Below are positions 15,900-20,398 of a stretch of DNA of 37,873 nt, piece after piece (the first letter of the stretch is position 1; every line of letters begins with the position of its first letter). The DNA is taken from positions 1 through 37,873 of the IMG/VR virus record IMGVR_UViG_3300048590_000403; one strand, given 5' to 3'. The position numbers and the translations under genes are program-made. This DNA comes from a virus. The notes under the pieces were generated by a model. That model searched no databases and was not told the DNA's origin. It saw nothing but the letters and a program-made list of their open reading frames with translations.

Positions 15900-16270
15900 T
15901 TTATGCCTTCTTTGCCGTCGGCGTAGTCGTCAACAAATTCGCCCGTCGCCGACGGTTCCCATTGTTTTTCTTGTCGTCTCGGCGGTTGACGAATTTCACT
16001 AAGACGGGACAAAACGACAAGCGCGATCGCCGCGACTAAAAGAACCGCGGCGGTTGACCCGAAATACTGTAATTTTGACAGTTTGGTTTCGGGCGGCGGT
16101 TCCGCCGGAACCCTAACCGACCCGGTTGGTGTCGTCACGTCATACCCGGTTTCGGTTTTTAAAATACTAAAACGAACTTCATACCAACCGTGACGCGGAA
16201 TTGATATCGAATCAAGCGCCGATTCGGTGACACAAATTTCGTTTTCACGGACTTCAAACATTTTCTTCAT
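15896..16270 (-). CDS. Single-span membrane protein
   Basis: I start at ATG 16270, which overlaps the polymerase stop as ATGA; the protein is 124 residues. Residues 1-65 are soluble and beta-like with a proline-rich end (RVPAEPPPETKL), residues 68-88 are one membrane span (LQYFGSTAAVLLVAAIALVVL), and the C-terminus is basic then acidic. There is no signal peptide, so the N-terminal domain is probably cytoplasmic. Family not recognised. Confidence 0.65.
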   Translation of the reverse strand: MKKMFEVRENEICVTESALDSISIPRHGWYEVRFSILKTETGYDVTTPTGSVRVPAEPPPETKLSKLQYFGSTAAVLLVAAIALVVLSRLSEIRQPPRRQEKQWEPSATGEFVDDYADGKEGIK

Positions 16271-18003
16271 TTTCGGTAACGTAACCCTTCCCAACCGCCC
16301 GCGGCGATCGGACAATCGACGCCCCAAGTCGGGCGCGCGGTCATAGCATTTTTGAATTCTTCAATGTTTCCGGTTTTAGTTTCGCCGACAAGTTCGTCAT
16401 GAACGTGAAGGCTTAGGATGTATTTCGATTTGAGTTCGGGTTTTGTCGCGAAGTTCAAAATCGCGTTCGCCATAAAGTCCCGCGCGACGGCTTGGGTCAC
16501 GTTTTCAGTCAATTTTCCGCCGTAAGTTTTGTCAAGATCCCATTTTCTAGTCACGTTGTTCATACCGTAATAGCACACGACCGGCCGCTTTTGGCCGAAG
16601 ACCGTTTCAAATTTCACACTTGCATCCGGGTAACATAAAGACCGCCCCGACGGAAGGCGACACCAAAGGTCTTTTTTGTCAAAAAACCAAATCGTTTTGT
16701 TGATCGAAACTTTTGTCATCGGCTTTTGAATCGCGTGAATCGCCGCTTGGTTCAAGTTTGACCAAAGACGCGGAACCGGCCAATGCTTTTCACGGTAAAG
16801 CGCGACGGACTTTTCGGCGAGTTCCATTGTTATGGGTTGGTTGAACTGTTCGCAAGTCGCATGGAATTTCTTCGCGCCCATGCCGTAACCGCATCCTAAG
16901 ATCGTTCGTTTTCCGATATCGCGTTCGGCTTCGTCTTGCCGGGTCACGGGACGCCCGAAAATTTCGGACGCCATTTCTTCATAGATCGGCGCGTTTTGTT
17001 CATACGCTTTAACGCCTTCCGCGTGTCCCGCAAGCCAAAATAAAACCCGCGCTTCGATCGCCGAAAAGTCCGAACAAACGAACTTGTATCCGGGACGCGG
17101 GACAATCATCGACCGAACGACGCCCGAAAACGCGTCCATTGGTGACCCATAGAACAAACGAACGCGCTCTAAGCTTTCGTCGTTTATAACTTCACACGCG
17201 ACTTCGGGGTCGAAGTCACCTAGCGCCTTTGTCGGCTTCGGTAAGTTCTGCGGTTGAAACCCCGAACCGCCCCAACGCCCGGTCGACGCGACATGAAATA
17301 AAAGTGTATCGCGAATGAACCCGTCGGACGTTGATCTATGAAGTAACGCCGCGTATTTGGCGGTTGAGGTCTTTGACGTCATTTGTCTGATTTGTAGAAT
17401 TTCAAGAACGTGGTCTTTTGTGTCCTGACTTAGTTCGGGCGTAAACTTCGGAGCTTTTAAAAAGTCGGAAAGCGTTTTCATTTGTAAGTTGGGGAGTGAT
17501 TCGACGCTCACGAATTTTCTGATATATTTTAAAAGTTCGTTCCGTTGGTTCGCGGATCTTACGCGGCCGCCGGTTAGTTCGGTCAACCGCTTGTTCAAGT
17601 GTTTTGATTCTTCGGTCACCATGCGAACAATCTTTTGGGCAAGATCGCGGTCAACCCGGAAACCTTTGAAGTTCATGACTTGGTCAAGTTCCCATAAACG
17701 CCGTTCACTTGGGACAAGCGGCGGAAGTTTCAAATGCAAATGCTTTTGCGCGCGTATATCGCGCGCGCAGTATAAGACAACGCGCTTTAGACCGTGAAGG
17801 TCGTCATGGTATTTCGCCGGATTGTTTTTTGAAGGCTTACGCGGTTTCGAGTATTTGAGCATCAAGCGGCGGCCGGTCATGTCTTTTTTAAACGGTAAAC
17901 GTAAAGCGACGGCCGACATTTCAAGGCTTCGCGGACGCGCAACGGCCGCGGATCTTGCGGCGGTGCAATCCCAAAATGACGGGTCAAACTTCGGTAACTT
18001 CAT
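16267..18003 (-). CDS. DNA polymerase I (family A), large part
   Basis: The 578-residue protein is the polymerase half of a phage family-A replicase. Seen motifs: TGRWGGSGFQPQNLPKP (241-257), motif A SDFSAIEARV (Asp312), motif B RDIGKRTILGCGYG (361-374) and motif C HVHDE (Asp536, Glu537). The first 95 residues are the end of a DEDD 3'-5' exonuclease, with motif III YCARD (Tyr78, Asp82). Exonuclease motifs I and II are missing here and lie in the separate gene at 19377. The polymerase active site looks complete, so DNA synthesis is expected; proofreading would need both products to associate. The start is an ATGA overlap with the gene at 18000. Confidence 0.95.
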   Translation of the reverse strand: MKLPKFDPSFWDCTAARSAAVARPRSLEMSAVALRLPFKKDMTGRRLMLKYSKPRKPSKNNPAKYHDDLHGLKRVVLYCARDIRAQKHLHLKLPPLVPSERRLWELDQVMNFKGFRVDRDLAQKIVRMVTEESKHLNKRLTELTGGRVRSANQRNELLKYIRKFVSVESLPNLQMKTLSDFLKAPKFTPELSQDTKDHVLEILQIRQMTSKTSTAKYAALLHRSTSDGFIRDTLLFHVASTGRWGGSGFQPQNLPKPTKALGDFDPEVACEVINDESLERVRLFYGSPMDAFSGVVRSMIVPRPGYKFVCSDFSAIEARVLFWLAGHAEGVKAYEQNAPIYEEMASEIFGRPVTRQDEAERDIGKRTILGCGYGMGAKKFHATCEQFNQPITMELAEKSVALYREKHWPVPRLWSNLNQAAIHAIQKPMTKVSINKTIWFFDKKDLWCRLPSGRSLCYPDASVKFETVFGQKRPVVCYYGMNNVTRKWDLDKTYGGKLTENVTQAVARDFMANAILNFATKPELKSKYILSLHVHDELVGETKTGNIEEFKNAMTARPTWGVDCPIAAGGWEGLRYRK

Positions 18004-18248
18004 TTTCCTTTTATCTTTTCATAGCGATTTTGAAAGACGTCGTTCTTGACGGAAGTTATACTACCGTCCGCGTGTTTGACAACCCAATCGGTTGGTGACA
18101 CGAAAACCGTTCCGTTAGTACTTGGAAGTTGTAAAAATTTGCCCGCCGTAAACGCTTGAACTTCGCCCAAAAGCTTTTTGATGTCTTGAGTGACTTCGCT
18201 TTCCCATTGAACCGCGTCGACCGTTAGTGTTTTAGTTTTGTATTTCAT
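18000..18248 (-). CDS. Small conserved-type phage protein, unknown
   Basis: The 82-residue protein ends with VSPTDWVVKHADGSITSVKNDVFQNRYEKI, a pattern ('.DW.V....G......D.F...YE') I recall from short phage proteins often encoded near replication genes. Its function is not established to my knowledge. It lies directly before the polymerase gene and overlaps it by ATGA; it is the last member of the four-gene group between the two polymerase parts. Confidence 0.65.
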   Translation of the reverse strand: MKYKTKTLTVDAVQWESEVTQDIKKLLGEVQAFTAGKFLQLPSTNGTVFVSPTDWVVKHADGSITSVKNDVFQNRYEKIKGK

Positions 18249-18505
18249 CGGTACTTAGCTTCTAAAAATTTGATCAGTTTTTTACGCGCGTTTTCACCTA
18301 AGCAGTCTTTGACGTCGTCTATATAGATCAACCCAAGCGTGATCAATGCTTGCGCGATAAGCTTATCATCCCATTCGGAACTATTTTCGCCCAAGCCTAG
18401 AACCATCGTCGCGACGGGTTTTTTAAGTTCTAATTTTATCGCGCTTTTTCCGGTCGCAAGCGCGACTTTATTTTTAACAAAAACTATTTGACCGCGTTCT
18501 AACAT
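18245..18505 (-). CDS. Unknown small protein
   Basis: The 86-residue protein starts at ATG 18505 after GGGGG on the minus strand, one of the few free-standing ribosome sites in this strand region. It has a beta start (GQIVFVKNKVALAT) and a helical end (DVKDCLGENARKKLIKFLEA). Family not recognised. It overlaps the next gene by ATGA, and a candidate promoter lies at 18591-18619. Confidence 0.6.
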   Translation of the reverse strand: MLERGQIVFVKNKVALATGKSAIKLELKKPVATMVLGLGENSSEWDDKLIAQALITLGLIYIDDVKDCLGENARKKLIKFLEAKYR

Positions 18506-18619
18506 ACCGCCCCCTTTTTATTGTTCATTCCTTGCCCCCGTTGGTGTCGCGATCGCTAGGCCATTCACCTAAACAATACGCGTATAGTAAAATAAATAAC
18601 GAAAAGATTTCTATGTCAG
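18506..18619 (-). promoter_or_regulatory. Candidate leftward promoter region
   Basis: This is the gap between the methyltransferase gene and the gene at 18245. On the minus strand CTGACA (18614-18619) and TTTATT (18591-18596) are 17 bases apart, a 5/6 and 4/6 match to sigma70. It would drive the two small genes and the polymerase. No credible gene is present in the gap; the longest start-initiated frame I found is 16 codons. Confidence 0.3.
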
Positions 18620-19117
18620 TCACGGCGCCGCACCTGATTCCGGCTTCATAAACGTAAGCCATAGCGTTTTATTGTTTTGCATCGTCCGGTGTCCGAACAA
18701 AGGTTCAGCGCCCAAAACGTCTAAAACGTCTTTGACTTTTATTGAATGTTCATTCCATTTAAAAATCAAAACCCCGTTGGGTTTTAAAACCCTAAAACAT
18801 TCCCAAAAGCCTTGTTTGAGTTCGCTTTTCCAGTCCGCCCCTAACGACCCATACTTCAAGGCTTGCCAACCTTTACGCCCCGCCGATTTCAAATGCGGCG
18901 GATCGAAAACGACAAGATGAAACGTGTTCTTTTTAAATTTCAGCTTTTTAAAATCGTACTGCGTATGCGGGCAAATTTCCAAAACGCGACCGTCGCAAAG
19001 GACTGTTTTCTTTTTTCGCAAGTCGTTGAAGTGAACCCGCGGGTTTTCTTTGTCGAACCAAAACATTTTAGAACCACAACAAGCGTCGAGTATGGGCTTC
19101 GCTTTTCCGGTTTTCAT
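18620..19117 (-). CDS. SAM-dependent methyltransferase, class I
   Basis: The 165-residue protein has the start of a class I methyltransferase: motif I-like ILDACCGSKMFW (residues 9-20) and DPPH (72-75) after a beta strand HLVVF, which is the motif IV of amino-methylating DNA/RNA/protein enzymes (D/N-P-P-Y/F/H). Its end contains VLKPNGVLIFKWNE and LFGHRTMQNNKTLWLTFMK. There is no target-recognition domain visible, so the substrate is unknown. I recall this family as a common phage gene. ATGA overlap with 19114. Confidence 0.8.
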   Translation of the reverse strand: MKTGKAKPILDACCGSKMFWFDKENPRVHFNDLRKKKTVLCDGRVLEICPHTQYDFKKLKFKKNTFHLVVFDPPHLKSAGRKGWQALKYGSLGADWKSELKQGFWECFRVLKPNGVLIFKWNEHSIKVKDVLDVLGAEPLFGHRTMQNNKTLWLTFMKPESGAAP

Positions 19118-19380
19118 TTAAACCCCCGCGAAGAAACGATCGGCCCGCCCTTTTTGTGCGGGCGTTCGTCTTGAACGTCTGCGGGTTTTATCGCTTGTTT
19201 TTTCACGACTTCGACGGCCGCTTCGTCGAACCAAAACGATTCAGACATTTTGCCTTCTTTAGTCATGGGCGGCCGAATTTCGATTCGGTCGCATCCGGTC
19301 AAACATTTTGCTATCGCCGTTGCGATGCCTCTATACCCGGTTATCTTGCATTTGACTTCGTCACCTAGTTCTACGTTCAT
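19114..19380 (-). CDS. Small conserved phage protein, unknown
   Basis: I take ATG 19380 (88 residues), which overlaps the exonuclease-part stop as ATGA, rather than the longer frame from 19440. The sequence LGDEVKCKITGYRGIATAIAKCLTGCDRIEI followed by SESFWFDEAAVEVV is a pattern I know from many phages ('LGD.v.d.iTGf.GiAta...ylTGCdr'), with no assigned function. It may bind metal through its cysteines, which is speculation. It lies at the upstream edge of the group splitting the polymerase. Confidence 0.7.
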   Translation of the reverse strand: MNVELGDEVKCKITGYRGIATAIAKCLTGCDRIEIRPPMTKEGKMSESFWFDEAAVEVVKKQAIKPADVQDERPHKKGGPIVSSRGFK

Positions 19381-19721
19381 AAATTCCACCGAAGCCCTTT
19401 CGTTTTTAAATACTTTGGAAGTGTCAAAAGCGTTATACATTGTTCAAAAAAAGCGTTATGCGCGACACGTTTCGCACAAAACTTTTCGTCAGTCACCAAC
19501 GGATAAAACTTCGCGAATGATTTCTTCGCTTCAAATTCGCTTTGTGTAAACGCCGACCAAACAAACACGGGCGCGTCTAACAACTTTGATTCTTCGGCGA
19601 ATGACCAACATGCGCAAAGAATTTCGGTTGACGGATGCGCCGCGTATTCATACGCGCCGACAAGACGCAAATCAACTTCTGACCGCGTTTCATAGTCTAC
19701 AATCAAAACTTTATTTTTCAT
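19377..19721 (-). CDS. N-terminal part of DNA polymerase I 3'-5' exonuclease
   Basis: The 114-residue protein carries DEDD exonuclease motif I, VDYETRSEVDL (Asp9, Glu11), and the motif II region VAHNAFFEQ (Asn89 to Glu93), exactly as at the start of phage family-A polymerases. Motif III and the polymerase are in the gene at 16267. It ends LTLPKYLKTKGLRWNL and stops at an ATGA overlap. The start codon follows a terminator directly and has no purine-rich ribosome site, so expression may be low or by read-through. It could be a functional separate subunit or a decaying fragment; the intact motifs favour function. Confidence 0.8.
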   Translation of the reverse strand: MKNKVLIVDYETRSEVDLRLVGAYEYAAHPSTEILCACWSFAEESKLLDAPVFVWSAFTQSEFEAKKSFAKFYPLVTDEKFCAKRVAHNAFFEQCITLLTLPKYLKTKGLRWNL

Positions 19722-19726
19722 AAAAT

Positions 19727-19770
19727 TAAAAACGCACCGATGATCGTAAGGTGTTAAGGCGCTCGGTGCG
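19727..19770 (-). terminator. Rho-independent terminator (leftward)
   Basis: On the minus strand CGCACCGA (19763-19770) pairs perfectly with TCGGTGCG (19733-19740) across a 22-base loop, and GTTTTTAATTTT follows. It ends transcription from the single-strand binding protein gene. The T-run runs right up to the start codon of the exonuclease-part gene. Confidence 0.75.
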
Positions 19771-19798
19771 ACACGCCCAAAAAACTATTTGTTAAAAA

Positions 19799-20398
19799 CT
19801 ACCAACCGCCCGCAGTCATTGAATCGCCGTCGTCGGAATCGTAGTCGTTTCCGCGTTCTTCTGATTCTTCAACTTCCGGCGCGTCTTTGAATTCGTCTTC
19901 GGCCGAACGTTTACCAGATAGCGGTTTACCGTCGCGAAGCTTTTGAACGTTTTGAAGCGCGAATGAAACGCCTTTTTTGCCGTTCACGTCGTAAGTAAAA
20001 GCGATCAACGTCGCGCGCGCGTAACAACCCGGATAAAATTCTTCACTTTCTTCGGTTATTGGGTTCGCGTCCGGATAGTCGACAACGCCGGGTTTTTTCT
20101 TTGACGAAGCGGTGACGAAAATCGTGTTTTCATAACCTTCGACGTCTTCTTTTTCAGAACCGTCACGAAACGGTGTCGTGAATTTTTTCGGAACTTTATC
20201 AAGTGAACCGTAAGTTTCGATGATCGCGTTATTGACCGCGCGCTTTAGTTCTTTCAAATCAGTCGACTTTTTAAAAAGCATCGTGATCGAGTATTTCGGT
20301 TCTTGCCCGTTCATGCCTTCGGGTCTAAAGACCTTCGGGAATGACACGCGAAATTCTGGCGTGAAACATTTCTTTTTTGCGACATCCATTTTTGCCAT
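19799..20398 (-). CDS. DUF2815-type single-stranded DNA-binding protein
   Basis: The 199-residue protein would coat single-stranded DNA at the replication fork. The N-terminal region (FTPEFRVSFPKVFRPEG, EPKYSITMLFKK) and the middle (FYPGCYARATLIAFTYDVNGKKGVSFALQNVQKLRDGKPL) are typical of the DUF2815 family, whose members have an OB-fold like T7 gp2.5. The C-terminus is acidic and ends in an aromatic residue (DYDSDDGDSMTAGGW), as in single-strand binding proteins that recruit partners through the tail. It starts after GAAGGGGG. It is transcribed with the nuclease gene upstream. Confidence 0.9.
   Translation of the reverse strand: MAKMDVAKKKCFTPEFRVSFPKVFRPEGMNGQEPKYSITMLFKKSTDLKELKRAVNNAIIETYGSLDKVPKKFTTPFRDGSEKEDVEGYENTIFVTASSKKKPGVVDYPDANPITEESEEFYPGCYARATLIAFTYDVNGKKGVSFALQNVQKLRDGKPLSGKRSAEDEFKDAPEVEESEERGNDYDSDDGDSMTAGGW

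Follow-up and report, generated by a model that had tools for sequence, protein, structure and literature searches.

A phage family A DNA polymerase gene divided within its exonuclease domain by an island of accessory genes

The DNA analysed here (hereafter the window), 37,873 bases long, is the IMG/VR contig of an uncultured phage, a single genome in which the gene for a DNA polymerase is split into two parts, polA-N and polA-C. The genes around it lie on the minus strand in the order SNF2-like helicase, acidic small ORF, DUF2800 nuclease, Enc34-type single-stranded DNA-binding protein (SSB), polA-N, five small ORFs and polA-C (Table 1). The ORFs and their motifs confirm a preliminary description that had placed exonuclease motifs I and II (ExoI, ExoII) in a gene of 114 residues and motif III (ExoIII), with the polymerase, in a second gene starting at position 18003. 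That description had counted four genes between the halves, whereas we find five ORFs, of which the one with 45 residues is doubtful.

Table 1. Coordinates of the divided polymerase gene, its neighbours and a second type of split polymerase
Feature	Coordinates	Strand	Length	Description and basis
Single-stranded DNA-binding protein (ssb)	19799..20398	-		Directly before polA-N; PF10991, E 7.3e-46
polA-N	19377..19721	-	114 aa	First half of 3'-5' exonuclease domain; ORF, phrog_17, alignment with intact relatives
Insert gene 1	19114..19380	-	88 aa	Function not assigned; phrog_16275
Insert gene 2	18620..19117	-	165 aa	DNA methyltransferase-like; phrog_954, E 9.7e-70
Insert ORF 3	18525..18662	-	45 aa	Doubtful; ORF only, without family match
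Insert gene 4	18245..18505	-	86 aa	ORF only, without family match
Insert gene 5	18000..18248	-	82 aa	Function not assigned; phrog_419
polA-C	16267..18003	-	578 aa	Second half of exonuclease domain and complete family A polymerase; PF00476, phrog_17, AF2
L144-type split polymerase	L144:451-2347			Two ORFs, 11-base overlap, GTG restart

The polA-N product contains ExoI as DYETRSE, with the acids D9 and E11, and ExoII as VAHNAFFEQ, with residues H88, N89 and E93, and the polA-C product contains ExoIII as YCARD, with residues Y78 and D82. As had been noticed earlier, all three motifs are kept, but they are spread over two chains, and the exonuclease and polymerase are encoded by two ORFs 1.4 kb apart; in the family alignment, every family-invariant exonuclease residue is found in the window. 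The polymerase part of polA-C matches PF00476 above the cut-off (E 4.9e-24), with its family A motifs, D312 and HDE at 535-537, present and invariant in the alignment. On the phrog_17 profile, polA-N covers positions 668-751 (E 1.9e-7) and polA-C positions 753-1232 (E 3.8e-86); since these segments adjoin, the two genes are pieces of one family. As the ExoII acid is Glu throughout the polymerase family in the alignment, we assume exonuclease activity by homology.

The region between the two halves is nearly all coding and has stop/start overlaps at both borders: the ATG of insert gene 1 overlaps the polA-N stop (ATGA), and the stop of insert gene 5 overlaps the ATG of polA-C. Relatives of insert gene 2 are found by tblastn in many phages, and the codon preference of the insert (0.11-0.20) is similar to that of its flanks (0.16-0.23). 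Family searches found no homing endonuclease gene among the five insert ORFs. A ribosome-binding stretch of its own (AAAAGGAAA) precedes polA-C within the last codons of insert gene 5; upstream of the polA-N start no clear ribosome-binding stretch was seen. The gap between ssb and polA-N (19722-19798) contains a perfect eight-pair stem (CGCACCGA/TCGGTGCG) with a 22-base loop, followed by the T-run TTTTTAATTTTATG, and this hairpin ahead of the polA-N start is terminator-like, its folding being no better than that of shuffles. Given the weak ribosome-binding context and the hairpin with its T-run, the level of the polA-N product may be low.

The relatives were drawn from two samples, one of 168 viral loci and one of 341 viral and genome loci, in which some contigs were fetched repeatedly. 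Across the two sets, at least 316 loci, the closest listed relatives included, read continuously through the break site, which bears out the earlier statement that known phage polymerases are continuous here. The exceptions are contig ends, L338, L064 and a clade of 14 contigs. L338 (3700-4700, from a Thiodubiliella endosymbiont MAG) was set aside as a split polymerase on account of several frame changes, which indicate a pseudogene or sequencing errors. Ruegeria phage Tedan was likewise discarded, its polymerase being a single CDS, as was Achromobacter phage tuull as a case of the same split, its break lying elsewhere. In the latter phage (L171, 2147-4445) the polymerase is annotated as two adjoining CDSs, from which most related Achromobacter phages differ, and this is possibly a sequencing frameshift.

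The intact relatives from the same module (L090, L091, L092, L094 and L097; phrog_17), which are 45-49% identical to the window in the polymerase part, share with it the motifs and the neighbouring DUF2800 nuclease, Enc34-type SSB and helicase; they differ in having one continuous chain, with their accessory genes between ssb and the polymerase gene. An island of small accessory genes of about 1.5-3.4 kb occupies this position in L002, L092, L094, L097, L098 and L108, whereas the window has only 77 bases between ssb and polA-N and carries its island inside the polymerase gene instead. A homologue of the 165-residue methyltransferase of the insert is found in L495, where it lies between ssb and a continuous polymerase gene. 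This homologue and the islands of the relatives indicate that the island of the window is of the usual kind, moved past the first ~320 bases of the polymerase gene. HNH endonuclease genes lie directly before the polymerase gene in L002 and L098, and a remnant of one is present in L090; both a homing endonuclease and illegitimate recombination would be plausible routes of insertion. In L098 (5001-7425), an HNH-endonuclease-like ORF interrupts the polymerase downstream of the exonuclease domain.

The preliminary description had taken two similar motifs, LPKY among the last residues of polA-N and LPKF among the first of polA-C, for repeats, and had proposed a duplication of about ten residues at the border. 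This is not supported by L090, the closest intact relative among the matches listed (48% identity), which reads HNAFFEQVITRFVLPKYLKRPLPDLPPARWQCTAAQ, that is, LPKYLK followed by PLPDL; its continuous protein across the border is HNAFFEQVITRFVLPKYLKRPLPDLPPARWQCTAAQAA, with LPKY and LPxL consecutive. As L090 carries both motifs in succession, the halves of the window simply abut, though strictly a duplication of a few border residues could still have occurred. The C-terminus of the polA-N product, LPKYLK(TKGLRWNL), lies ~20 residues past ExoII, and the N-terminus of the polA-C product, (MK)LPKFDPSFWDCTAAR, ~10 residues ahead of WDCTAA; in the family alignment the halves meet within a loop whose length varies strongly among relatives. 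The extra codons of polA-N, TKGLRWNL, overlap a GG-rich stretch just upstream of the ATG of the next gene, and may for this reason be the leader of that gene read in frame.

To place the break on a structure we used an AF2 model of the intact L090 polymerase (34 sequences, mean pLDDT 93.1), which aligns along its entire length with Pol I structures, Klenow among them (Foldseek E 3e-19; VIA Z about 22). The break of the window maps to the coil 102-110 of this model, flanked by the ExoII helices 87-96/98-101 and the strand 114-116. The equivalents of polA-N comprise the strands 2-11, 31-40, 50-53 and 80-84, and those of polA-C the strand 114-116 and the ExoIII helix 172-195. In a model of the polA-C product alone (AF2, pLDDT 91.7), the helices are kept, the equivalent of strand 114-116 is unformed and the first ten residues are uncertain (62); the unformed strand would fit one that awaits its sheet, which is only suggestive.

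We then compared the rates of evolution of the two parts. A fixed tree of 37 polymerases gives the terminal branch of the window an N:C ratio 1.04x that of the whole tree (rank 21 of 37); calculated from pairwise distances, the ratio for the window comes to 0.94 of the median (bootstrap 0.83-1.07). Thus, polA-N is not evolving more quickly than the polymerase part and displays no acceleration relative to its intact homologues. Decay of polA-N over a good part of the window branch should stand out in such a test, which bounds decay rather than proving constraint, as a very recent split would escape it. Among the results of single-protein queries of IMG/VR, where near copies may be left out, no strain-level relative shares the split of the window.

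Nearly all the sampled relatives have a single ORF across this site, the exceptions including the 14 distinct contigs mentioned above (L161, L071, L144, L343-L347, L349, L350 and L352-L355), in which the polymerase is independently broken elsewhere between ExoII and ExoIII. A scan of 83 loci gave 58 with a single ORF, 17 that are split (a count that includes duplicate fetches and L064) and 8 that run off the contig. In the L144-type polymerases the first ORF ends in LCKPQKVRAKRAK before its stop. The second has a possible GTG start, placed so that it overlaps this stop by 11 bases, and nearly all members carry an AAGG-type stretch about seven bases ahead of the GTG. The break maps to the coil 156-171 of the L090 model, just before the ExoIII helix. 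Among seven members, the first ORF has dN/dS values of 0.01-0.08 and the second values of 0.04-0.07, where computable above zero; both ORFs are under strong purifying selection. The two ORFs might be joined by frameshifting, but the reading as two chains is favoured because the restart signal is conserved. Since breaks in the exonuclease domain recur, and one clade that has them shows measurable purifying selection, natural phages seem to tolerate such a design. A third break point, earlier in the domain (about residue 140, with the overlap ATGAGTAA), is seen in a single related contig, L064 (4643-6509); being a lone case, it could be genuine or reflect an indel error of one base.

Together, these observations point to polA as a gene in pieces; its two products probably assemble into one proofreading polymerase, as the preliminary description had proposed. 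This reading is the best supported because the motifs are kept, polA-N is not accelerated, the break lies in a coil and other splits are under purifying selection. Under it, the accessory island that usually separates ssb and the polymerase gene would have come to lie inside the latter, between ExoII and ExoIII. Of the exonuclease sheet, the polA-N chain would provide strands one to four, together with the ExoI acids and the ExoII helix; the strand that follows would come from the polA-C chain, as would the ExoIII helix and the polymerase. Both chains would most likely be made from one coupled operon transcript and associate non-covalently into an ordinary proofreading polymerase.

Alternatively, the insertion could have destroyed proofreading, so that the phage uses an exonuclease-minus polymerase and polA-N is a decaying vestige. 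Family A polymerases lacking the exonuclease activity exist, the split of the window is a single instance, and the weak ribosome-binding context ahead of polA-N would also be in line with such a vestige. However, polA-N has no stop codon, retains all its motif residues and is not accelerated by either the tree or the distance ratios. Moreover, ExoIII and the remaining half of the exonuclease domain are kept in polA-C, and the first ORF of the L144-type clade, whose break lies elsewhere, is under strong purifying selection. We hence consider the vestige unlikely.

Two further possibilities, both of which we regard as highly improbable, would restore a single chain. In one of these, the 1.4-kb insert is removed as an RNA intron, as a split intein or by DNA excision; the halves do meet almost without gap or overlap, and phage polymerase genes are well known to harbour group I introns, according to work cited in PMC10580990. 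Against this stand the almost wholly coding nature of the insert and the stop/start overlaps at its borders. The insert has no match to Rfam group I/II or other intron families at the gathering threshold or at E up to 10, there is no intein domain at the break and no room for one in the end of polA-N or the start of polA-C, and the two junctions share no convincing direct repeat, LPKY and LPKF differing in their codons. The other possibility is a chimeric or mis-assembled contig, the natural polymerase gene being continuous. The window is indeed a lone record of an uncultured virus in IMG/VR, but both its junctions are functional stop/start overlaps, insert and flanks are alike in codon preference, polA-N and polA-C are at like distance from the same relatives, and the insert is of the kind that adjoins the polymerase gene in those relatives.

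The assembly of an enzyme from the products of two genes has precedents with biochemical backing among phages. The replicative DNA polymerase of phage 25 is encoded by two genes, and its chains, gp43A and gp43B, co-purify and polymerise (PMC2988022). This split gene 43 of the T4-related Aeromonas phages 25 and 44RR resembles the locus in the window in that a phage replicative polymerase is carried by two genes; it differs in belonging to family B rather than family A, and in being associated with an untranslated spacer or with the gene of a homing endonuclease rather than with a coding island of five genes (PMC2988022). In Aeromonas phage Aeh1, an insertion of mobE in a functionally critical region of nrdA leaves the split NrdA fully active; here too an insertion in such a region divides an enzyme gene, but the enzyme is a ribonucleotide reductase and the insert a homing endonuclease gene (PMC2988022). 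A further case is that of the MEP401-type OM43 phages, in most of a group of which a split family A polymerase is conserved (PMC10580990). They likewise have a phage family A polymerase in two ORFs with a small ORF of no assigned function between them; however, they are broken within the polymerase domain, the first ORF retains a whole exonuclease domain, and there is one intervening ORF (PMC10580990). Thus, split phage polymerases are already known; in the open-access literature we found no published break between ExoII and ExoIII, and within that literature a split through the catalytic site of the exonuclease appears novel.

A more general proposal, which we offer tentatively and consider rather doubtful, is that proofreading on a separable subunit, with one exonuclease active site completed by two chains, has arisen more than once in phage family A polymerases, at different loops between ExoII and ExoIII. 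If this were true, the mutation rate of the phage could be set by how much of one chain is synthesised relative to the other. Should the chains of the window assemble, their second subunit could add proofreading to the polymerase or omit it, and might give enzyme engineering a proofreading part that can be separated. The case also shows how an island of accessory genes beside an essential gene can come to lie within it.
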